Assembly: GCF_002954225.1 (NCBI RefSeq)
Contig: NZ_PPTH01000014.1
Coordinates: forward strand, 62,001 to 126,000
DNA length: 64,000 bases
Source of the DNA: Arthrobacter ruber
GTDB lineage: Bacteria > Actinomycetota > Actinomycetes > Actinomycetales > Micrococcaceae
Reading direction: 5' to 3'
The notes beneath the pieces were generated by a model, which was given only the letters and a program-made list of their open reading frames with translations, was not told where the DNA came from and did no database searches. Every line of letters begins with the position of its first letter. Positions within the stretch are counted from its first letter, which is position 1. This document shows positions 21,264 to 32,447 of the stretch, piece by piece. The position numbers were made by a program, and so were the translations under genes.

Positions 21264-22499
21264 ATGAACAAGAACTGGCGCTGGCTTCCTGCCGGCATCG
21301 TTCCGGTCGTCATCGTCACCGCCGCCGTCAGCGGCTCCGCTGTCGCCGAAGCCCAACCGCAGCTGCCCGCGAAGACCGCGCAGGAGCTCCTCGAGTTCGT
21401 CGCCACCAGCACCGACGACGCCTACTCCGGCACCGTTGAGCAGTCCTCCGACCTCGGCCTCCCGGATCTCGGGGCGGTCGACGCCCCGGGCCGCACCTCC
21501 AGCTCCGACCCGACCTCCATGGCCCTCGAACTCCTGACCGGGGAGCACACGGCCCAGGTGTACGTGGACGGGACGGACAGGGCACGCGTCCAGGTGCTCG
21601 ACCAGCTGGCGCAGCGCGACGTCGTCGTCAACGGGAACGATGTCTGGTACTACGACTCCGAGTCCAACGAGGCCGCCCACGCCGTGCTGCCGGACAAGGC
21701 GGCGGCGAAGGCCGAACTCGAGGCGAAGCTGCAGGAGAAGTCGGCCGAGTACCCCGAGCTGCAGGATCTTCCCCGGACGCCTGCCGAGGTCGCCGAGGTG
21801 GTCCTCGCCACGATCGATCCCGGCACCGACATCAGGGTGGACGGCACCAGCCGCGTGGCCGGTCGCAGCGCCTACGAGCTCGTCCTCACCCCCGAGGACG
21901 AGGCGACCCTCGTCGGCTCCATCACCGTCAGCGTCGATTCCGAGACCGGCGTCCCGCTGAACGTCACCGTGCTCGCCAAGGGCCAGGAGGAGCCGGCGTT
22001 CTCCGCAGGCTTCAGCTCCGTGGACTTCGGCGCCCCCGACGCCGACATCTTCGAGTTCACTCCGCCGGCAGGTGCCACCGTCACGGAAGCACCGACCGCC
22101 GACGAGGCGAGGGCCGAGCTGGAGGCCAGGGCCGAGCTGGAGGCCGGGCAGGCGCCGGCCGATGCACCCGCCCAGATGCCCGCAGAGGAGCAGCAGCCCA
22201 CCGTCATCGGTGAGGGCTGGAGCACCATCGTCGAGCTTCCCGCCGGGACCGCCGGCGGACTGGGTCTCGACCTCGGCACCGGTGACACCGCGGGCATGGG
22301 CGAGATCATGGAGATCAAGCCCGGCATGGATCCCGACGAGGTGGCAGGCGCTCAGGCCCTCCTGGAGCAGGCACTCACCCAGGTGGACGGCGGCCGCGCA
22401 CTGCAGACCTCGCTCGTCTCGGTGCTGATCACCGACGACGGCCGCATCCTCGCAGGCGCCGTCGGCGTCGACCAGCTCGTCGCCGCCTCCCAGCGGTGA
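21264..22499 (+). CDS. LolA-like exported protein
   Basis: 411 residues. N-terminal membrane/signal segment (WRWLPAGIVPVVIVTAAVSG...AVAEA). The following domain (about 35-275) resembles the LolA/LolB-like half-barrel found in actinobacterial exported proteins (TAQELLEFVATSTDDAYSGT, NGNDVWYYDSESNEA, GRSAYELVLTP, VDFGAPDADIFEFTPPAGA). A Glu/Ala-rich linker carries a short duplication (RAELEA twice), then a small alpha/beta domain ends the protein. Monoderm bacteria lack the Lol pathway, so it may move lipids within the envelope. Its stop overlaps the ABC ATPase start by four bases, suggesting a joint role. Confidence 0.72.
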   Translation: MNKNWRWLPAGIVPVVIVTAAVSGSAVAEAQPQLPAKTAQELLEFVATSTDDAYSGTVEQSSDLGLPDLGAVDAPGRTSSSDPTSMALELLTGEHTAQVYVDGTDRARVQVLDQLAQRDVVVNGNDVWYYDSESNEAAHAVLPDKAAAKAELEAKLQEKSAEYPELQDLPRTPAEVAEVVLATIDPGTDIRVDGTSRVAGRSAYELVLTPEDEATLVGSITVSVDSETGVPLNVTVLAKGQEEPAFSAGFSSVDFGAPDADIFEFTPPAGATVTEAPTADEARAELEARAELEAGQAPADAPAQMPAEEQQPTVIGEGWSTIVELPAGTAGGLGLDLGTGDTAGMGEIMEIKPGMDPDEVAGAQALLEQALTQVDGGRALQTSLVSVLITDDGRILAGAVGVDQLVAASQR

Positions 22500-23494
22500 C
22501 CGCGGGAGTGCCCGTGCGGTCCGCCCACGACGAGCGGACCGCGCGGGAGGGCGCCACGGGATTGGCGATCGAGACGCGCGGACTCACCAAGGTCTTCGGT
22601 AGGCAGCGGGCCGTCGACGGCGTGGACCTCGCCGTCCCCCGCGGGACGGTATTCGGCTTCCTGGGCCCCAACGGCTCGGGCAAGACCACCACCATCCGCA
22701 TGCTCCTCGGTCTCGCCGCGGCATCGAGCGGCGAGATCCGGCTGCTCGACGGCGCCATGCCGAAGGACGCCCGCGCCGTCCTCCCGCGGGTGGGAGCCCT
22801 CGTGGAGGGACCCGCGATCTATCCGTTCCTCTCGGGGCGCGCGAACCTCCAGCGGTTCGATGCCGCCGACCGCCACACCTCCCCCTCCACCCGGAACGCG
22901 CGCGTGGATGCAGCCCTGGAGCGTGTGGGCCTCGGCCACGCGGCGAAGAAGCGGGCCCACGCGTACTCGCTCGGCATGAAGCAGCGCCTGGGCATCGCCA
23001 ACGCCCTGCTCGCACCACGCGACCTGCTGATCCTCGACGAGCCCACCAACGGGCTCGATCCCCAGGGCACGCGGGAGGTGCGCAACCTCATCCGGTCCCT
23101 GTCCGACGACGGCACCACCATCTTCGTCTCCAGCCACCTGCTCGCCGAGGTGGAGCAGATGTGCACCATGATCGCCGTCATGAGCGCCGGTCGGCTCGTA
23201 GCGCAGGGCACGCTCGACGACCTCCGGTCCCAGGGCACCGCCCGGGTTCGCATCACCACGCCCGATCCCGCCGACGCGCGCCGCATCCTCAGCGGACTCG
23301 GGCTCGTCCCCGAGCCCCACGGGCGAGACGACGTCGTGACCGCCGAGCTCTCCGTGCCCGGGCTGCAGTCGGAAGCGGTGAACGCCGCCCTCGTCCGCGC
23401 GGACGTGCGCGTGCGGGGTCTCGAGGTGAGCGGCGCGTCCCTCGAGGACCGCTTCGTCGCACTGACGGGAGAGGGGTTCGACGTTGCCGGCTGA
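22496..23494 (+). CDS. ABC transporter ATP-binding protein (export type)
   Basis: 332 residues from GTG 22496. Walker A is GPNGSGKTT, the signature region is YSLGMKQRLGIANAL (a common variant of LSGGQ in this drug/export subfamily), Walker B is LLILDEPTNGLDP and the switch His is in SSHLLAE. A C-terminal extension of about 90 residues follows, as in CcmA/NatA-type exporters. Translationally coupled to the LolA-like gene before it and to the permease after it. Confidence 0.92.
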   Translation: MTAGVPVRSAHDERTAREGATGLAIETRGLTKVFGRQRAVDGVDLAVPRGTVFGFLGPNGSGKTTTIRMLLGLAAASSGEIRLLDGAMPKDARAVLPRVGALVEGPAIYPFLSGRANLQRFDAADRHTSPSTRNARVDAALERVGLGHAAKKRAHAYSLGMKQRLGIANALLAPRDLLILDEPTNGLDPQGTREVRNLIRSLSDDGTTIFVSSHLLAEVEQMCTMIAVMSAGRLVAQGTLDDLRSQGTARVRITTPDPADARRILSGLGLVPEPHGRDDVVTAELSVPGLQSEAVNAALVRADVRVRGLEVSGASLEDRFVALTGEGFDVAG

Positions 23495-24347
23495 CATGGC
23501 GCAGGTGCGGCCCGCCCGCGGGCGTCGGTCCCTCGGATTGACGCTGGTGGTCTCGGAGATCACGGTCCTGTTCCGCAGGCTCCGCACGTGGGCGATGATC
23601 GGTGCATTGGCGTTGATCCCGATCCTCATCGCCGTCGTCGTCCGCGTCTCCTCCGACGGCGCGGCGAGCGGCCGCGGCCCGGCCTTCCTCAACAGCATCA
23701 CGCAGAACGGCCTGTTCGTCTCGCTGACGGCGCTCACCGTCGCGATCCCCCTGTTCCTGCCGCTGACCATCGGCGTCGTGGCCGGTGACACGATCGCCGG
23801 CGAGGCCAATCTCGGCACGCTGCGCTACTTGCTCGTGGCGCCTGCGGGGCGCCTCCGACTGCTGCTCGTGAAGTACGCGGGGGCGGCCCTGTTCTGCTTC
23901 GTGGCGACCCTGACCGTCGTCGTGACCGGTGCGATCATCGGGGCGCTCCTGTTCCCGGTGGGTCCGGTGACTCTGCTCTCCGGGGACACCGTGGGTATCC
24001 CCGGGTACTTCGTGCGGCTGCTGCTGCTCGCCCTGTACGTGACGGTGTCGCTCATGGGCCTCAGCGCCATCGGCCTGTTCATCTCGACGCTGACCACCAT
24101 CCCCGTCGGGGCAATGGCGGCGACGGCCGCGCTGGCTGCCGTCGCGCAGATCCTCGGCGCCCTCCCTCAGCTCGAATGGCTGCACCCGTGGCTGTTCACC
24201 AACTACTGGCTGGGGTTCGGCGACCTGCTGCGGGAGCCGATCGTGTGGACCTCCTTCGCGGACAACGCCCTGCTGCAGTTCGGCTACATCGCCGTGTTCG
24301 GGACGCTGGCGTACGGGCGGTTCAGCACCAAGGACATCCTGAGCTAG
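23484..24347 (+). CDS. ABC-2-type permease
   Basis: 287 residues with TTG 23484 (GGAGAGGGG upstream, overlapping the ATPase gene by 11 bases) or ATG 23496 as start. Six hydrophobic segments, including MIGALALIPILIAVVVRV and the pair LTALTVAIPLFLPLTIGVV/AGDTIAGEANLGTLRYLLVAP, the latter being the conserved cytoplasmic coupling loop of ABC-2 permeases. With the upstream ATPase it forms a complete exporter; the exported compound is unknown. Confidence 0.88.
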   Translation: MPADMAQVRPARGRRSLGLTLVVSEITVLFRRLRTWAMIGALALIPILIAVVVRVSSDGAASGRGPAFLNSITQNGLFVSLTALTVAIPLFLPLTIGVVAGDTIAGEANLGTLRYLLVAPAGRLRLLLVKYAGAALFCFVATLTVVVTGAIIGALLFPVGPVTLLSGDTVGIPGYFVRLLLLALYVTVSLMGLSAIGLFISTLTTIPVGAMAATAALAAVAQILGALPQLEWLHPWLFTNYWLGFGDLLREPIVWTSFADNALLQFGYIAVFGTLAYGRFSTKDILS

Positions 24348-24367: not shown

Positions 24368-24386
24368 TTAACTTAGGCTACCCTTG
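24368..24386. promoter_or_regulatory. DtxR/IdeR-type iron box
   Basis: TTAACTTAGGCTACCCTTG matches the 19-base palindromic iron box TTAGGTTAGGCTAACCTAA at 14 positions by my count, including the uninterrupted core TTAGGCTA. It lies 54 bases upstream of the fbpA ATG. This implies repression of the four-gene operon by an iron-loaded DtxR/IdeR regulator, which is not itself in the window. Confidence 0.75.
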
Positions 24387-24440
24387 GTCGTCGAGCCCTT
24401 CGCGTTCGACGGACATCCCCACGGCCCGAGAAGAGACCTG

Positions 24441-25463
24441 ATGCACCTGCGCCCCCTGACGACCACCCTCGTTGGACTGACTGCACTGACATCGGTACTC
24501 ACCGGGTGCAGCGCCATCGGCGGTTCGTCCGCGGACCTCCAGATCTATTCGGCGCGCCACTACGATCTCGAGGGTGCCTTCGGACAGTTCACGGAGGAGA
24601 CCGGCATCACCGTCGAGTTCATCAGCGGCGACGACGCCGAACTCCTCGAGCGCCTCAAGGCGGAGGGTGAGGACACCCCGGCGGACGTGTTCATGACCGT
24701 CGACGCGGGCAACCTCTGGAACGGCGCGCGCCAGGACGAACTGGCCCCCACCAGTTCCGCCGTGCTCGACGAGGCCGTCCCCGAGGACCTCCGCGACGCG
24801 GACGGCCGCTGGTACGGACTGGCCCTGCGCGCACGCACGGTCACCTACAACCCCGACGCCGTGGATCCCGCCGAGTTCGACGCGGTCGACACCTACGCGG
24901 GCCTCGCCGATCCGACGTGGAAGGGCCGCCTGTGCATGCGGGACGCCACCTCCGCCTACACGCAGTCCCTCGTGGCAAGCCTGATCGACCTCCACGGCCG
25001 GGAGCGGGCCCTCGAGATCGTGCGCGGCTGGGTGGCCAACGAGGTCTCCATCCTGAGCAACGACGTCCTCCTCCTGGAGGCCATCGACGCCGGGACATGC
25101 GATGTCGGCATCAACAACCACTACTACCTCGCCCGGACCCTGGCGGAGAACCCCGACCTGAAGGTGGACCTGTACTGGGCGAGCCAGGAGGGTGCCGGGA
25201 CGCACGTCAACATCTCCGGTGCCGGCGTGGTGCAGGGATCGGACAACCCGGAGGACGCGCAGAAGCTCCTCGAATGGCTCGCCACCGACGGACAGAACGC
25301 CTTCGTCGACGCCAACCACGAATTCCCCGTCAACCCTGCCGTCGAACCCGAGCCGGTCATCGCCGCCTTCGGCGACTTCGAGCGCATGCCGCTGAACGCC
25401 GAGGCCTACGGGACACTGAACGCCGACGCCGTCGACCTGCTCGCCGAGGCCGGATACAAGTGA
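24441..25463 (+). CDS. fbpA: Iron(III) ABC transporter substrate-binding lipoprotein
   Basis: 340 residues from ATG 24441. Lipobox LTGC with Cys23. The mature protein starts LQIYSARHYDLEGAFGQF, the typical start of FbpA/FutA ferric-binding proteins; DVFMTVDAGNL, GRLCMRDATSAYTQSLVASL and the Tyr pair in INNHYYLART supply the metal site in this family (tyrosines in the C-lobe). It captures ferric iron outside the cell for FbpB/FbpC. First gene of an operon with 4-base overlaps throughout and an iron box upstream. Confidence 0.92.
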   Translation: MHLRPLTTTLVGLTALTSVLTGCSAIGGSSADLQIYSARHYDLEGAFGQFTEETGITVEFISGDDAELLERLKAEGEDTPADVFMTVDAGNLWNGARQDELAPTSSAVLDEAVPEDLRDADGRWYGLALRARTVTYNPDAVDPAEFDAVDTYAGLADPTWKGRLCMRDATSAYTQSLVASLIDLHGRERALEIVRGWVANEVSILSNDVLLLEAIDAGTCDVGINNHYYLARTLAENPDLKVDLYWASQEGAGTHVNISGAGVVQGSDNPEDAQKLLEWLATDGQNAFVDANHEFPVNPAVEPEPVIAAFGDFERMPLNAEAYGTLNADAVDLLAEAGYK

Positions 25464-27154
25464 CCGACACGGCGGCGCTCGCCGAACCGCGGCCGCCCCG
25501 CCGACGCCCCCGGACCCACGGAGTCGGGCGTCCCGCGTGGTCGGCACTGGTCGTCACGGTGGCCGCCGTCGTCGCCACCCCCGTCCTGGCGGTCGTCGTC
25601 GACGGCCTCGGCAACAGCGCCGCCCTCCCGCGGGACCTCGGGCAGATGATCCTCACCACCCTCGCCCTGATGCTCGGCGTCGGTGCGGGGTCGCTGGTGG
25701 TGGGCGGAGGCCTGGCCTGGCTGGTGACCGCCTACCGCTTCCCGCTGCGTAATCTCCTGGTGTGGCTGCTCGTCCTGCCACTGGCGATGCCCGCCTATGT
25801 CCTCGGGTTCGTCTTCCTCTCGGTCTTCGACGTCGCCGGGCCCGTCCAGTCCTTCCTGCGCGCCGTGTTCGGGGCCGACGTGTGGGTTCCCGAGGTACGG
25901 TCGCTGCCCGCCGCGATCATCGTCATGTCGCTCTCGCTCTACCCCTACGTCTACCTCATGGCCCGTTCGGCCCTGATCGAGCAGTCCTCGGGGACCTACG
26001 ACGCGGCACGCACCCTCGGAGCGAACCGGGGCCGGGCGCTTCGGCGGGTGGTGCTGCCGCTCGCCCGGCCGTCCCTGGCCGCAGGGCTGGCCCTGGTGAT
26101 GATGGAGACACTGACCGATTTCGCCACGGTGCAGTACTTCAACGTGCAGACCGTCTCCGTGGGGGTCTACCTCGTCTGGAAGGGCACGTTCGACTTCCAT
26201 GCCGCGACCCGGCTCGCCGTCCTCGTCCTGCTGTTCGCCGTGGCCGTGCTGGTCGCGGAGAGGGCCCTGCGCGGGCGGGCGCGCTACCACCAGCAGGGCG
26301 GCCGGCGGCAGGGCTTCGAGCCGGAGCGGCTGCGGGGAGCACGCGCCTGGGCCGCGACGGCCCTGTGCCTGGCGGCCCTGTCCGCCGGGTTCCTGATCCC
26401 CGTCGCACAGCTCCTGGTGTGGGCGGTCGGGCAGGTCATCTCGGATGCGTCGTTCCTCGCCGACCCCAGGTTCGCGGAGTACCTGGCCAACAGCCTGCTG
26501 GTGGCAGGAGTCACCTCCCTGGTGTGCGTCGGCCTCTCCCTGTGCGTCGGTCACGCCATCCGGCTCGGCGGCGGCCGGCTCGTCTCCGGGGCGGCGCAGC
26601 TGACGACATTCGGGTACGCGGTACCCGGCGCCGTGGTGGGCATCGGGGTCCTGCTGTCCTTCGCCGCCCTCGACGCCGGACTGGAGCGCGCAGGCGTCCC
26701 CGGGGGTACCGGGCTGATCGTGACGGGTTCGGTGGTCGGCATCCTCTACGCCTATGTCATCCGCTTCCTCGCCCCCGCCTACCAGTCGGTCAGTGCGAGC
26801 CTCGAGAAGATCTCCCCCACCCTCACGGCTTCCGCCCTGAGCCTGGGTGCCGGACCGCGCCGCATGCTCGGCCGGGTGCATCTGCCCCTCGCCCGGCCCG
26901 GGGTCGCCGTGGCCCTGATGCTGGTGGTCATCGACGCCGTCAAGGAACTGCCGATCGTCCTGCTCCTGCGGCCCTTCGGCTTCACCACGGCGTCCGTGTG
27001 GGTGTACGAGCTCGCGCGGGAGAACTTCTGGGAGAAGGCATCCCTCCCGGCCCTGGTCATCGTGGCTGTCGCCATCATCCCCGTCTTCGTGCTCGTCGGT
27101 CAGACCCGACGGCGCGAGGCCCATCGAACGGTTCCCGGAAAGGCAGGACAGTGA
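25460..27154 (+). CDS. fbpB: Iron(III) ABC transporter permease, fused two-domain type
   Basis: 564 residues from GTG 25460 (GTGA overlap with fbpA). Two tandem six-helix permease domains, each with an EAA-type coupling loop: ARTLGANRGRALRRVVLPLA in the first and ALSLGAGPRRMLGRVHLPLA in the second. This duplicated layout is standard for FbpB/SfuB/FutB ferric permeases. The N-terminal 25 residues are Pro/Arg-rich and cytoplasmic. Partner of FbpA and FbpC. Confidence 0.93.
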   Translation: MTDTAALAEPRPPRRRPRTHGVGRPAWSALVVTVAAVVATPVLAVVVDGLGNSAALPRDLGQMILTTLALMLGVGAGSLVVGGGLAWLVTAYRFPLRNLLVWLLVLPLAMPAYVLGFVFLSVFDVAGPVQSFLRAVFGADVWVPEVRSLPAAIIVMSLSLYPYVYLMARSALIEQSSGTYDAARTLGANRGRALRRVVLPLARPSLAAGLALVMMETLTDFATVQYFNVQTVSVGVYLVWKGTFDFHAATRLAVLVLLFAVAVLVAERALRGRARYHQQGGRRQGFEPERLRGARAWAATALCLAALSAGFLIPVAQLLVWAVGQVISDASFLADPRFAEYLANSLLVAGVTSLVCVGLSLCVGHAIRLGGGRLVSGAAQLTTFGYAVPGAVVGIGVLLSFAALDAGLERAGVPGGTGLIVTGSVVGILYAYVIRFLAPAYQSVSASLEKISPTLTASALSLGAGPRRMLGRVHLPLARPGVAVALMLVVIDAVKELPIVLLLRPFGFTTASVWVYELARENFWEKASLPALVIVAVAIIPVFVLVGQTRRREAHRTVPGKAGQ

Positions 27155-28293
27155 CGGCCCAGACCAAGAGTGCGCCGGCCGGTCGCGACGCAGTGGGCGC
27201 CCCTCCGGCGCTCACCCTCGAGGGAGTGACCAAGCGGTACGGATCGGCCCGGGGCGTGGAGGGGATGGACCTGGTCGTTCCCCCGGGGGAACTCCTGACG
27301 CTGATCGGCCCGTCGGGCTGCGGCAAGTCGACGACGCTGCGGCTCGTCGCCGGGCTGGAACGGCCCGACGCCGGGACGATCACCGTCGCCGGGCGGGTCG
27401 TCGCGGACACCCGCCGCTTCGTCGAACCGGAGCGCCGGCGGGTGGGGCTCGTCTTCCAGGACCATGCCCTCTTCCCGCACCTCACTGTCGGGAAGAACGT
27501 CGAGTTCGGCCTCCACGACCTGCGCAGCGGTGAGCGCCGGTCCCGCGCCGGCGAACTCCTGGACCTCGTCCAGCTGGCCCATCTCGCCGACCGCTATCCG
27601 CACGAGCTGTCGGGAGGCGAGCAGCAGCGCGTCGCCCTGGCGCGCGCACTGGCCCCGCGGCCCGCCGTCGTCCTCCTCGACGAGCCGTTCTCCAGCCTGG
27701 ACGAGTCGCTGCGCGCCCAGGTCCGCCGGGACACCGTGGCGACGCTGCGCGAGACCGGCACCACCGGGGTGCTCGTCACCCATGACCAGACCGAGGCCCT
27801 GTCCGTGGGCACCCGCGTGGTCGTCATGAACAACGGCCTGATCGAACAGGCCGACTCTCCCGAGAAGGTCTTCGAACAACCGTCCACCCGGTTCGTCGCC
27901 TCCTTCATGGGTGACGCCGACTTCCTCCCCGCGCACGTGCACCGCGCCCTGCTGACCTGCGAGATCGGGATCGTCTCCACGGTCCCCGGCTGGGCGGACA
28001 GCGACGCGGACGTCGACGTCGTCCTGCGGCCCCACGAGGTGGCCCTGAGCCCGTCAGCGGACGCCACCGCGCGGGTGTCCGCGGTGGAGTACCACGGGGC
28101 GTTCGTCCTGCACCACGTCCGGCTCGCCTCGGGACGGACCCTGCGCTCCTGGCAGCCCCACGACGTGCGCCACCCCGTCGGCACACCCGTCACGGTGACC
28201 GTGGCCGCCGGCACCTCGCCCACGCTGCTCGTGGGTGACCGGGCCGTCACCACGCCGCCCGGGAACGCCCCGAGGATCGCGGTGGCACCGTGA
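27151..28293 (+). CDS. fbpC: Iron(III) ABC transporter ATP-binding protein
   Basis: 380 residues from GTG 27151. Walker A GPSGCGKST, Q loop VFQDHALFPHL, signature LSGGEQQRVALARAL, Walker B VVLLDEPFSSLD, switch VTHDQTEAL. The C-terminal 110 residues form the regulatory TOBE-like region (VDVVLRPHEVALSP, RVSAVEYHGAFVLHHV). Energises iron uptake by FbpAB. Overlaps fbpB and the next gene by four bases on each side, which strongly ties the next gene to iron. Confidence 0.93.
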   Translation: MTAQTKSAPAGRDAVGAPPALTLEGVTKRYGSARGVEGMDLVVPPGELLTLIGPSGCGKSTTLRLVAGLERPDAGTITVAGRVVADTRRFVEPERRRVGLVFQDHALFPHLTVGKNVEFGLHDLRSGERRSRAGELLDLVQLAHLADRYPHELSGGEQQRVALARALAPRPAVVLLDEPFSSLDESLRAQVRRDTVATLRETGTTGVLVTHDQTEALSVGTRVVVMNNGLIEQADSPEKVFEQPSTRFVASFMGDADFLPAHVHRALLTCEIGIVSTVPGWADSDADVDVVLRPHEVALSPSADATARVSAVEYHGAFVLHHVRLASGRTLRSWQPHDVRHPVGTPVTVTVAAGTSPTLLVGDRAVTTPPGNAPRIAVAP

Positions 28294-30803
28294 GCCTCAA
28301 CCCGGACCTCTCCGAGGCCACGTTCACCGACCTCGCCCGCCACGGGGACCGGCCCGCGGTCCTCACCGCCGACGGCGCCCTCTCGTACCGCGAGCTAGCA
28401 GCGCGGGTCGACGACGTCGCGGCGCGCCTCGGCACTGAGCGACGCCTCGTCCTGCTCGCGGCACGCAACGACGTGGAGACCCTCGTGGCCTACCTGGCGG
28501 CGATCACGGCCGGCCACCCGCTGCTCGTGGTGCCGGCGGACAAGCCCGCTGCGCTCGAGTCCCTCGTCTCCGGGTACGAGCCCGATGTGGTGCTCCGGAC
28601 CGGGAACGGCTCGCTCGCCATCGACGAGCGGTGGCCCGGCACCCGGCACGAGTTGCACCCCGATCTCGCGCTGCTGCTCAGCACCTCGGGGTCCACGGGC
28701 TCCCCGAAACTGGTCCGGCTGTCGCGGGCCAACCTCGAGGAGAACGCACGGTCGATCGCCGGGTACCTGAGCATCGGCCCCGACGACCGGGCCGCCACCA
28801 CCCTGCCGTTCTCCTACTGCTACGGCCTGTCGGTGGTCAACAGCCACCTGGCCCGCGGGGCCGGTCTCGTCCTCACGGACCTGTCCGTCGTCGACCCCTG
28901 TTTCTGGGACCTCTTCCGCGAGCGCGGCGCCACCTCCTTCGCCGCCGTGCCGTACAGCTTCGACCTGCTCGAGCGGGTGGGCTTCGCGGACATGGACCTG
29001 CCGACCCTGCGCTACGTCACCCAGGCGGGCGGGCGGCTCGCTCCGGAGAAGGTGCGGACCTGGGCGGAGACCGGCCAGCGGCGGGGCTGGGACCTCTTCG
29101 TCATGTACGGGGCCACGGAGGCCACCGCACGGATGGCCTACCTGCCCCCCGACCTGGCGGCGGAGCACCCGGGAACCATCGGGGTGCCGGTCCCCGGCGG
29201 CTCCTTCCGGATCGATCCCGTCGACGGCCTTCCCGCCGGGGAACTGGTCTACACCGGCCCGAACGTGATGCTGGGCTATGCCGAAGGGCCGGACGACCTC
29301 GCGCTCGGACGCGAGCTGCAGGAACTCCGGACGGGGGACCTCGCCCGCCGGCACCCGAACGGCCTCTACGAGGTGGTCGGCCGGCGCAGCCGGTTCGTCA
29401 AGATCGCCGGGCTGCGGGTGGACCTCGGGCAGGTCGAACGGATCCTCGCCGATCTGGGCGCCACCGCCGCCGCCACCGGTTCCGACGACGACGGCCTGGT
29501 CATCGCTGTCGAGGGTGACCACGACGCGGACCTGCTGTCCAAGGTGCTTGCCACCGATCTGGGACTGCCCCGGGCCGCGGTCGCGCTGCATCCGGTGGAG
29601 CGCCTGCCCCGGCTGCCCACGGGCAAGATCGACTATCCCGCCGTCCGGAACCTGGCGGCCGCGCAGGTCGTACCTCCCGCCGACGGAGGACGGCAGCAGG
29701 AGGGTCCCGCCGACGTGCCGCGGATCTTCGGGGAATGCCTCGACCGTGCGGATGTGCGTGCGACGGACACCTTCGTCTCGCTCTCCGGTGACTCGCTCTC
29801 CTACGTGGCACTGTCCGTCCGGCTCGAGGCCGCCCTCGGGCCGCTGCCCGCCAACTGGCATCTCCTGCCCGTCGGCGAACTGTCCGGCCGCAGCAGGCCA
29901 CGGCGTCGGCGGCTCATCTCCTTCCTGGAACCGTCGATCGTGCTGCGGGCCGTCGCGATCATCTGCATCGTCGCCGCCCATGTGGAGCTGTTCACGTTCC
30001 ATACCGCGCACCTGCTGTTCGTCGTCGCCGGTTTCAACTTCGCCCGCTTCCAGCTGACCGGGAACCGTCCCGAGCGGCTGCGGCGCCATGCTCGGAGCCT
30101 GGCGAGGATCGTCGTCCCGTCGGTCGCCTTCATCGCGGTGGCCTATGTCCTCACCGACAACTACAGCGTCGCCAACATCTTCCTGCTCAACGGCATGGTG
30201 GGGCCGCAGGAGGTGACCAGCGAGTGGCACTTCTGGTTCGTCGAGATGCTGGTCTACGTACTCGTCGCGGTCATGCTCCTGCTGGCCGTCCCCTGGGTGG
30301 ACCGGCTCGAGCGCCGCGTGCCGTTCGCGTTCGCCCTGGGTGTCCTGGCTGTCACGCTGCTCAGCCGGTACGACATCGTCGACCCCGGCCTGCCCAAGCC
30401 CCTGCCCGTCTTCTGGCTCTTCGTGCTCGGCTGGGCGGTCGCACGGGCCGGCGACACCCGGCGTCGCCTGCTGGTGTCGGCCCTTGCCGCGCTGACGGTG
30501 CCGGGTTCCTTCGACGAGCCGCTCCGTGAGGTGACCATCGTGCTGGGCCTGCTGCTCATCACGTGGGTGCCGGCGCTGCCCGTGCCGTCGATCCTGCGCC
30601 GCGTCACGGGCTGGCTCGCCGCGGCGTCGCTGTACATCTACCTCACGCACTGGCTCGTCTACCCGATGCTGATGCCCTTCGGCCAGGTCGTCGCAGTCGT
30701 CGGATGCCTGCCGGTCGGGGTCGGTTACTGGGCGCTGTGCCGGTGGGCGCCCGTCGCGTTCGTACGGTGGAGGCGGCGCAGGGCCCCGATTCTCGCGTCG
30801 TAG
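28290..30803 (+). CDS. Trifunctional fusion: adenylation domain, carrier domain, membrane acyltransferase-3
   Basis: 837 residues, GTG 28290 overlapping fbpC. Residues 1-455 are an acyl/aminoacyl-adenylating enzyme: phosphate loop STSGSTGSPK (131-140), FVMYGATEATARM, ELRTGDLARRHPNGLYEVVGR and the C-terminal Lys in LPTGKIDYPA. Residues about 465-535 look like a short carrier protein with the phosphopantetheine-type site SGDSLSYV (Ser502). Residues about 547-830 are a ten-or-so helix acyltransferase-3 domain (VLRAVAIICIVAAHVELF with the conserved Arg and His, LFVVAGFNFARF, EWHFWFVEMLVYVL, YIYLTHWLVYP). The enzyme should activate an acid, load it on its own carrier and pass it to an acceptor at or across the membrane, like DltA-DltC-DltB in one chain. 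Acid and acceptor are unknown; iron control suggests a siderophore or iron-linked surface molecule. Confidence 0.85.
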   Translation: MSLNPDLSEATFTDLARHGDRPAVLTADGALSYRELAARVDDVAARLGTERRLVLLAARNDVETLVAYLAAITAGHPLLVVPADKPAALESLVSGYEPDVVLRTGNGSLAIDERWPGTRHELHPDLALLLSTSGSTGSPKLVRLSRANLEENARSIAGYLSIGPDDRAATTLPFSYCYGLSVVNSHLARGAGLVLTDLSVVDPCFWDLFRERGATSFAAVPYSFDLLERVGFADMDLPTLRYVTQAGGRLAPEKVRTWAETGQRRGWDLFVMYGATEATARMAYLPPDLAAEHPGTIGVPVPGGSFRIDPVDGLPAGELVYTGPNVMLGYAEGPDDLALGRELQELRTGDLARRHPNGLYEVVGRRSRFVKIAGLRVDLGQVERILADLGATAAATGSDDDGLVIAVEGDHDADLLSKVLATDLGLPRAAVALHPVERLPRLPTGKIDYPAVRNLAAAQVVPPADGGRQQEGPADVPRIFGECLDRADVRATDTFVSLSGDSLSYVALSVRLEAALGPLPANWHLLPVGELSGRSRPRRRRLISFLEPSIVLRAVAIICIVAAHVELFTFHTAHLLFVVAGFNFARFQLTGNRPERLRRHARSLARIVVPSVAFIAVAYVLTDNYSVANIFLLNGMVGPQEVTSEWHFWFVEMLVYVLVAVMLLLAVPWVDRLERRVPFAFALGVLAVTLLSRYDIVDPGLPKPLPVFWLFVLGWAVARAGDTRRRLLVSALAALTVPGSFDEPLREVTIVLGLLLITWVPALPVPSILRRVTGWLAAASLYIYLTHWLVYPMLMPFGQVVAVVGCLPVGVGYWALCRWAPVAFVRWRRRRAPILAS

Positions 30804-30816
30804 GTCCTGCCGGGGG

Positions 30817-31380
30817 TCACCGGGATCGCGCGGGCTGCGCCGCGGGCCACAGCACGTCCAGTGAATGGAGCGCGTGCCTCCGCGCGATGGCGACGACGGC
30901 GGACGCGCACGTCTCGGCATCGCTCCCCGCGTCGTGGTGCCTGAACGCGCCCAAACCGAGGGCCTTCGCGACATCCGGCAGCTTGTGGGACTCGAGGCCG
31001 AGGAGGCGCCGTGCCAGATGGACGGAGCAATGGAACGCTGTCTCGGGCACGGGAAGACCCGACTCCGTGCAGGCACCCCGCAGCACGGACCGGTCGAAGG
31101 AGGCGTTGTGCGCCACGAACGAGTCGGTGGCGGCGAACGCCTGGATACGCCGCAGGCTCTCGGGCCACCGGGGAGCCGTCCGGACGTCGGCAGGGCGGAT
31201 TCCGTGGACCTCGATGTTCCGCGGCGCGAACTCCCCCACCGCATGAGGTGGCCTGATCAGCCACGACGCCGAGTCGACGACGACGCCGTGCCGCACCTTC
31301 GCGAGGCCGACGGCGCAGACCGAACCGCGCTTGCTGTTCGCGGTCTCGAAGTCGATAGCCGTGAAGTTGAGACCGTGCAC
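30817..31380 (-). CDS. DnaQ-like 3'-5' exonuclease
   Basis: 187 residues from GTG 31380, preceded by AGGGGGAAC; longer in-frame starts give an Arg-rich non-conserved extension. Exo I motif is FTAIDFETANSKRGSVCAVG (Asp and Glu), Exo II is FVAHNASFDRSVL (Asp), and Exo III is FRHHDAGSDAETCA (HxAxxD form, here H-D-A-G-S-D, with the catalytic His and Asp). This is the polymerase-III-epsilon-like exonuclease family found as stand-alone proteins in actinobacteria, likely in DNA repair or RNA trimming. Converges on the iron operon with a 13-base gap, and no terminator was seen. Confidence 0.88.
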   Translation of the reverse strand: MHGLNFTAIDFETANSKRGSVCAVGLAKVRHGVVVDSASWLIRPPHAVGEFAPRNIEVHGIRPADVRTAPRWPESLRRIQAFAATDSFVAHNASFDRSVLRGACTESGLPVPETAFHCSVHLARRLLGLESHKLPDVAKALGLGAFRHHDAGSDAETCASAVVAIARRHALHSLDVLWPAAQPARSR

Positions 31381-31619
31381 TGTTCCCCCTGAAGACCCCA
31401 CCGCTGGTTCCGCGGCCTCCGACAGCCTACCGGCCGCAGATCGCACGATCCCGCAGCGCCGCCGTCCGCGAGGTGCGGAAACACTGACGGAATCCTGCCT
31501 CGAACCCGTGCGGTCGGCGGACCGGCAGCGGCCCCGCGGCCGATAGATTCGTGGTACCCGGCGAGGCTCAGCTCGCGCGGGACGCGCAAGGGGACTCTCA
31601 TGATCATCGGACACCGGCG

Positions 31620-32447
31620 ATGACCGCCGCCGTACCACTCGACGGCGAAGCCGCGTACGTGGAGCCCGAGACCCTGGGGCTGCTCAAGCGCCGCATACCC
31701 GGGCAGTCCGTGATGGAGGAGCTCCTCGACACCCACGCCCGGAGCACAGGGCGCGGGCTTCTCGCGCGCGTCCTGGGGGTCCACCCGCTGAGTTCCGAGA
31801 GCCGTCCCTGGTACTGGGGCGCGCTGGGCGAGCGCGCCACCGGTCGCACGCTGGCCTCGCTGGGACCGGAGTGGACGGTCCTGCACGCCGTCCCCGTGGG
31901 TGAGAAGTCGGCCGACATCGACCACGTGGTGATCGGCCCCACGGGCATCTTCACGATCAACGCGAAACGCCACCCCGGCCAGAACATCTGGACGGCGAAG
32001 GGCACCTTCATGGTCGCCGGGACCCGCTACCCGTACGTCCGCAATTCCGAGCACGAGGCGACCCGGGCAGGAAAGCTGCTCTCGGCCGCGGTCCGTCAGA
32101 ATGTCGTGGCTACAGCCGGAATCGTCGTCGTCGGCGCGCGTCAGGTGACGGTCAAGGAGAAGCACCGGACGGTCTCGGTGCTAAGCCAGGCTCAATTGCT
32201 GCGCTGGATCACCCGGCGGCCGGTCGTCTACTCCCCCGAGCAGGTGGCCCTCCTGTCGGCGGCCGCTGCGCAGCCCTCCACCTGGCGGCGCACCACGCCC
32301 CTCCTCCGTGATGCGGCGGAAATCATGGGCCCGTTCGAGGCACTGCACCAGCTCGTGGAGCAGGCACGACGACGGCGGATCGGCTGGCTCCTGGCCGCTC
32401 CGGTCGCCTTCCTCGCGTCGGTTGCCGGCGTGCTGCCGTCCTTCTGA
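31620..32447 (+). CDS. NERD-domain protein with C-terminal membrane anchor
   Basis: 275 residues from ATG 31620. The NERD (nuclease-related) domain occupies about 65-190: ALGERATGRTLASLGPEWTV then KSADIDHVVIGPTGIFTINA, where Asp and the following acidic/Lys positions (NAKRHPGQN) replace the usual (D)-(E)xK; the Glu of E-x-K is Asn-Ala-Lys here, so catalysis is uncertain. A C-terminal hydrophobic helix (IGWLLAAPVAFLASVAGVLP) would place it on the membrane. It is followed after 25 bases by a second NERD-like gene. Role unknown. Confidence 0.78.
   Translation: MTAAVPLDGEAAYVEPETLGLLKRRIPGQSVMEELLDTHARSTGRGLLARVLGVHPLSSESRPWYWGALGERATGRTLASLGPEWTVLHAVPVGEKSADIDHVVIGPTGIFTINAKRHPGQNIWTAKGTFMVAGTRYPYVRNSEHEATRAGKLLSAAVRQNVVATAGIVVVGARQVTVKEKHRTVSVLSQAQLLRWITRRPVVYSPEQVALLSAAAAQPSTWRRTTPLLRDAAEIMGPFEALHQLVEQARRRRIGWLLAAPVAFLASVAGVLPSF

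Follow-up and report, generated by a model that had tools for sequence, protein, structure and literature searches.

A single-chain adenylation-carrier-acyltransferase protein encoded behind a putative iron box, with a ferric transporter, in Arthrobacter ruber

Usual accounts of iron uptake feature siderophores or bare ferric transporters. An operon in a 64,000-nucleotide stretch of Arthrobacter ruber DNA (contig NZ_PPTH01000014.1 of assembly GCF_002954225.1, positions 62,001 to 126,000; hereafter the window) raises the question of why a ferric transporter should be encoded together with a protein that joins an adenylation domain, a carrier domain and a membrane acyltransferase domain in one chain. 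We call this protein AcpAT (adenylation-carrier protein-acyltransferase), a name coined in this analysis. Its gene (28290..30803, 837 residues) is the last of four on the forward strand, after fbpA (24441..25463), fbpB (25460..27154) and fbpC (27151..28293), and a DtxR/IdeR-like iron box (24368..24386) lies 54 nucleotides ahead of the fbpA ATG. A preceding reading of the same DNA, made without database searches (the sequence-only reading), had described four genes overlapping by four bases each behind such a box, three of them forming a complete ferric uptake system and the fourth joining ligase, carrier and acyltransferase-3 (AT3) domains in that order. These descriptions held: the three overlaps are at 25460-25463, 27151-27154 and 28290-28293, all frames are open, and the remaining points are borne out below. 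We consider it probable that AcpAT is an iron-starvation-induced machine for acyl transfer across the membrane.

A Pfam profile search of AcpAT returned AMP-binding at residues 15-330 (150.5 bits, cut-off 29.9) and Acyl_transf_3 (PF01757) at residues 551-798 (46 bits, cut-off 31). The adenylation domain (28332..29630, residues about 15-447) has the A10 lysine K446 and pocket residues C177, Y178 and R281. The carrier domain (29706..29849, residues about 473-520) scores under its Pfam cut-off (16.1 bits vs 20.8), but the GDS motif with the phosphopantetheine Ser502 (codon 29793-29795) is conserved in 27/27 aligned relatives, and a precomputed PF00550 annotation exists for relatives including P0012 and P0021. 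Within the AT3/TmAT membrane domain (29907..30779, residues 540-830), R553 and H564 form the helix 1 R-x10-H motif of AT3 enzymes (PMC9833829) and S780 and Y784 the helix 9 SxxxY motif, each pair present in all 27 aligned sequences. The modeled domain adopts the TmAT fold and matches HGSNAT when VIA-align is applied to Foldseek's list; Foldseek alone gave no significant row for this domain, and absence of a family from the VIA lists does not exclude it. The three-domain architecture is conserved, with intact active-site residues in both aligned sets (27 and 11 members), which reach from Actinomycetota to alphaproteobacteria. No match to the condensation domain PF00668 was found in the protein.

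The adenylation pocket offers hints to the cargo. The top solved relative of the adenylation core is VinN (PDB 3wvn, 87 bits), then LgrA, then oxalate-CoA ligase; with whole AcpAT as query LgrA ranks first. VinN activates 3-methylaspartate (PMC11284099), with D230 as amino-group ligand and K330 and R331 as key loop residues (PMC11253843). VinN D230, F231, S299, K330 and R331 align with AcpAT C177, Y178, A246, A280 and R281 (VinN numbers are alignment chain numbers minus 16, counted by hand). AcpAT therefore shares an Arg at the R331 position with VinN-type carrier-protein ligases, but has Cys for D230, a loop one residue longer, and fused carrier and membrane domains. The C177 position is Cys in 26 of the 27 aligned AcpAT sequences, and R281 is Arg in all 27 and in 11/11 of the set that includes alphaproteobacteria; opposite it, Pro is found in L003, an acyl-CoA-ligase-like paralogue of this genome. 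One LgrA alignment sets the amino-binding Asp opposite G179 instead of C177. Because neither residue is Asp, the cargo is likely an acid that carries no amino group at this place. We take R331 of VinN to be a carboxylate binder, and a second carboxylate on the AcpAT cargo is plausible. D-alanine was rejected as cargo on account of the missing amino-binding Asp, and an NRPS (nonribosomal peptide synthetase) siderophore module on account of the missing condensation domain. An aryl acid (dihydroxybenzoate, salicylate) was dropped as first choice, the aryl-acid ligase motif given in a review (PMC11253843) being absent by eye.

The transporter genes are those of a ferric importer. FbpA is a predicted lipoprotein whose top solved relative (290 bits) is the binding protein of an Fe(3+) ABC transporter, and 25 of its 30 solved relatives among the matches listed have iron in their names. 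The adjacent tyrosines of FbpA are iron ligands, and the HYY motif that holds them is kept in 9/9 aligned sequences. With the FbpB permease, in which two domains are fused, and the FbpC ATPase, which has a TOBE domain, this makes a complete FbpABC set. A 2-aminoethylphosphonate transporter was considered and rejected: the Phn NCBIfam models all fall under cut-off for FbpA, FbpB and FbpC, and ferric-binding structures match FbpA at up to 290 bits. The start of fbpA is likely ATG 24441 rather than TTG 24384, because the former has a purine-rich leader, yields a lipoprotein signal ending in LTGC and leaves the box upstream. Neither FbpABC nor the EfeUOB system is known to include an acyltransferase.

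The box is the single top 19-mer of the window, matching 14/19 positions of the DtxR/IdeR consensus; the runner-up matches 12/19. A search with a shorter core gave 1 match vs 0.01 expected. The DtxR-type regulator family PF01325 is above cut-off at 2 places in the genome, and this, together with a palindromic box ahead of the operon, would assign the operon to a DtxR/IdeR regulon. Iron-dependent regulation is thus predicted from motifs. Elsewhere in the genome, box matches precede genes that by eye encode an ABC ATPase, siderophore-binding lipoproteins and a permease (L072, L078, L080, L081), and one of the two top matches (2 mismatches) stands ahead of a 213-residue protein, VOC-like by eye (L068 828-1469, reverse strand).

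Does the box follow AcpAT into other genomes? We compared 66 loci, namely 71 examined (the window, L004-L053 and L101-L120) minus the incomplete L027, L038, L053 and L112 and the duplicate L119; L054, with 25% identity over part of the adenylation domain, had been excluded beforehand, and L029 and L051 were kept with their broken AcpAT frames. These loci are not independent, since the contig scan with six query peptides favours close relatives and L115-L120 were hand-picked from the genus. Complete fbpABC, defined as tblastn matches above 90 bits to all three genes within 6.5 kb, lies beside AcpAT in 35 loci. With a threshold of 14/19 and a 250-nucleotide interval, both chosen after a first look at the boxes, a box of at least 14/19 precedes fbpA in 28 of these 35. 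The sequence-only reading had named as a refuting outcome a gene found apart from fbpC in most relatives and unresponsive to iron. The first half is partly true, in that 31 of the 66 loci lack complete fbpABC beside AcpAT; the second is not borne out by motifs, as AcpAT itself has its own predicted box in 21 of those 31. The box is therefore present at most of the actinobacterial loci examined. Control motifs behaved otherwise: 100 scrambled palindromic motifs scored a mean of 0.13 and a maximum of 3 of 66 loci, random intervals gave 4/1021, and intervals upstream of other open reading frames gave 7/306, all 7 facing the lead gene's promoter by coordinates. Arthrobacter sp. VKM Ac-2550 combines an operon-type (L049) with a stand-alone (L043) copy, each with a box, and in L010, counted as boxless, a 16/19 box heads a three-gene run ending in AcpAT. 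Since the putative iron-starvation switch precedes the gene in most relatives examined, even away from the operon, AcpAT may be an undescribed part of iron capture in such bacteria.

Within the genus, AcpAT was found in 21 of 38 genomes (in pieces in G015), and FbpA of the window's type in 18 (a partial match in G030), that is, in 18/21 genomes with AcpAT vs 0/17 without (Fisher 4e-8, a value that ignores common descent). The fairest of our locus sets is a phylum sample, in which AcpAT occurs in 15/396 genomes and 13/237 genera from nine families, the window's included. Outside the window's genome, the gene lies beside fbpABC in 5 of 14 cases (L104-L107, L109) and apart from it in 9, of which L112 is incomplete. 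In the 13 loci other than L112, the lead gene has a box of at least 14/19 in 7; L109, additional to these, has a box that precedes AcpAT and not fbpA. In L107 and L109, two genomes of the deep family f29, AcpAT shares only 41-42% identity with the window's protein and still lies beside fbpABC, in differing gene orders. A repeat of the stretch around residues 245-539 occurs with broken AcpAT frames in Arthrobacter sp. H41 and one other genome (L029 7001-10513; G015:C1:26775-30281), which may reflect either a misassembly or a true duplication.

Pairing with iron uptake genes recurs, with differing partners. Named records with FbpABC beside AcpAT come from Streptomyces (divergent), Pseudofrankia, Nocardioides, Actinotalea, Phytoactinopolyspora (ATPase gene on the opposite strand) and Brevibacterium (divergent). 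Relative to the window's FbpA, identity is 27-31% in L028, L034, L041, L109, L122 and L123, 55% in L107 and 76% in L046. In L042, a single 16/19 box is shared by AcpAT and the divergent EfeO and EfeB-type peroxidase, both of which exceed their NCBIfam cut-offs. The L020 copy faces an imelysin of the same cluster, and the gene ahead of AcpAT in L010 scores marginally above the PF10634 cut-off (21.4 bits vs 21). Plasmids also carry the gene: 101 plasmid records match AcpAT, 74 of them over at least 80%, and we read nine regions of the many listed. On Rhodococcus opacus B4 and Mycolicibacterium chubuense plasmids AcpAT adjoins genes annotated as iron ABC transporter, on a Pseudarthrobacter defluvii plasmid it stands alone with a 15/19 box, and on a Deinococcus plasmid the match is confined to the adenylation domain. 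Five alphaproteobacterial regions (Sinorhizobium, Rhizobium, Leisingera, Shinella and NT-25) have the full architecture at 35-39% identity. A phage collection gave no AcpAT match at E 1e-30.

The sequence-only reading had seen in AcpAT the logic of Dlt in one protein. That parallel would hold for a carrier and a transferase working together, and is not supported for the cargo. D-alanylation of teichoic acids by DltABC(D) uses separate proteins, whereas AcpAT is one chain; the Dlt ligase has an amino-binding Asp for D-alanine, which the AcpAT pocket lacks; and an iron box precedes the AcpAT operon. The acyltransferase differs too, as had been proposed: DltB is an MBOAT protein and structurally distinct from TmAT (PMC12423673), and the AcpAT membrane domain falls in PF01757/TmAT, not MBOAT. 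AcpAT is thus no Dlt system. With AT3/TmAT enzymes such as OafB, OatA, TmaT and HGSNAT it shares a PF01757 match above cut-off, both catalytic motifs and the fold, and differs by its added N-terminal adenylation and carrier domains. The AT3 fusions named in the available parts of three papers are with SGNH, alanine/serine racemase and NRF domains (PMC9558356, PMC9833829, PMC12423673). AcpAT is an AT3/TmAT member with a seemingly new kind of donor supply. Literature searches, with most subscription journals outside their coverage, returned no description of this architecture or of its iron link.

We hypothesize that under iron starvation AcpAT most likely activates a small non-amino acid, attaches it to the carrier domain of the same chain and sends the acyl group out through the AT3 pore to an external acceptor. 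In such a scheme the adenylation domain would activate a non-amino carboxylic acid, a second carboxylate or a hydroxy or keto function of which would probably be held by Arg281, as suggested by the domain family. The acyl-AMP would then be moved onto the phosphopantetheine arm at the conserved Ser502, and the arm would present its acyl load at the cytoplasmic face to the AT3 domain, whose fold and catalytic motif are present, for transfer to an acceptor outside the membrane; the tethered carrier would take the place of the free acyl-CoA usual for AT3 enzymes. The product would be a ligand located outside the cytoplasm, either attached to a glycan or lipid of the envelope or secreted as a small molecule; it may bind iron and could help to retain ferric iron or to hand it over to FbpABC, and in other strains to Efe-type uptake.

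Several observations weigh against this proposal. Published AT3 donors are acyl-CoA, not acyl carrier protein (PMC9558356), for which reason we infer carrier feeding of the AT3 domain rather than assert it. The helix 3 RXXR of AT3 enzymes, described as highly, not absolutely, conserved, is replaced by SxxR (S603 and R606, each in 25/27); the exact motif is by eye also missing from the genome's two other AT3 proteins. The OafB motif FxxxxxL is not retained and ends in N583. The full-length model has a predicted template modelling score (pTM) of 0.50, so the relative arrangement of the domains in it is tentative. Arg opposite R281 is not wholly unique, since the acyl-CoA ligase paralogue L002 also has it, across a 5-residue gap. 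The lead gene lacks a box of at least 14/19 in 17/66 loci. Genome-wide, a loosened box pattern (3 mismatches) gives 15 matches vs 10 for a reversed control, so a single box is weak evidence at this scale and conservation across relatives carries the weight. A dedicated second (Sfp-like) phosphopantetheinyl transferase was sought and rejected, at least two PF01648 matches occurring in 11/21 genomes with AcpAT vs 10/17 without. The five alphaproteobacterial regions have no adjacent iron-uptake gene and no DtxR- or ICE-like box and so show no iron link; either the chemistry is broader than iron, or iron control there uses other sites. Finally, the stand-alone AcpAT copies looked at have no recurrent acceptor gene next to them. 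The earlier idea of exported, iron-linked acylation is supported, and the statement that the protein builds or modifies an iron-linked molecule stays a matter of inference.

What transmembrane acyl transfer would be for can be read in more than one way. Tentatively, AcpAT could be the whole biosynthetic part of an undescribed siderophore-free iron route, a self-charged di- or hydroxy-carboxylate being planted outside the membrane to create a surface, or else a small exported chelator, that holds iron and feeds whichever ferric importer the strain has. With the same reserve, this could be described as Dlt in reverse, with negative metal ligands added under iron starvation. Rather unlikely, in our estimate, is that AcpAT acylates the cell envelope, on a wall polymer, lipoglycan or glycolipid, in a general adaptation to low iron, a Dlt-like change of charge or permeability rather than iron capture. 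Envelope glycans are the acceptors of many AT3 enzymes (PMC9558356), and the stand-alone copies without a dedicated acceptor gene and the alphaproteobacterial relatives without iron neighbours fit such a role; yet the pairing with varied ferric uptake genes and the distribution of FbpA (18/21 vs 0/17) exceed what a general stress gene needs. Succinylated lipomannan of Micrococcaceae, another idea for the acceptor, is not claimed, as neither literature searches nor the available part of PMC3229680 gave support for Micrococcus.

An improbable reading has AcpAT modify a siderophore, its own or a neighbour's, at the outer face of the membrane, helping FbpABC strip or retain iron. Small molecules such as antibiotics are also AT3 acceptors (PMC9558356), and siderophore-import-like genes lie behind similar boxes in the genome by eye, but hardly any siderophore would be made by the two routes searched. 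PF00668 matched 0/38 genus genomes, the same model matching 4/14 controls including Escherichia coli and Bacillus subtilis, and PF04183, for NRPS-independent siderophore (NIS) synthetases, matched 5/38, only one with AcpAT and none being the window's genome. Because of these counts, an own siderophore of NRPS or NIS kind is unlikely as acceptor in 20 of the 21 strains. A siderophore trade-off was rejected as not significant (PF04183 in 1/21 with AcpAT vs 4/17 without, Fisher p 0.15). We give very little credence to two independent activities, the adenylation-carrier thioester being used elsewhere and the AT3 domain working on ordinary acyl-CoA. The published acyl-CoA donors (PMC9558356) and the existence of mere convenience fusions would allow it, against which stands the joint retention of all three domains, with active-site residues intact, throughout both aligned sets.

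Neighbouring genes lie on either side of the operon. An ABC ATPase and permease pair (22496-24347) immediately 5' of the box, probably a separate transcription unit, adjoins the operon in close relatives; the permease is 90-94% identical in L004, L005, L007, L008, L030 and L052, and the pair was not found there in more distant loci. After AcpAT comes a convergent open reading frame (30817-31638, reverse strand), exonuclease-like by eye and in the same place in L004, L005, L055 and L056. In three stand-alone genus copies (L115-L117), whose boxes reach only 12-13/19, AcpAT has a similar convergent gene after it; in L116, where this gene was tested, it is DUF1684.

Motif and neighbourhood tie the AcpAT family, with its exporting acyltransferase, to iron starvation in a range of actinobacteria. 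Of the two siderophore synthetase families searched for in the genus, PF00668 is absent and PF04183 rare. If the proposed mechanism is true, it would break the published view of AT3 enzymes as users of free acyl-CoA and would provide the first step so far missing from FbpABC-type uptake by Gram-positive soil bacteria. As a single gene is involved, the hypothesis is directly testable.

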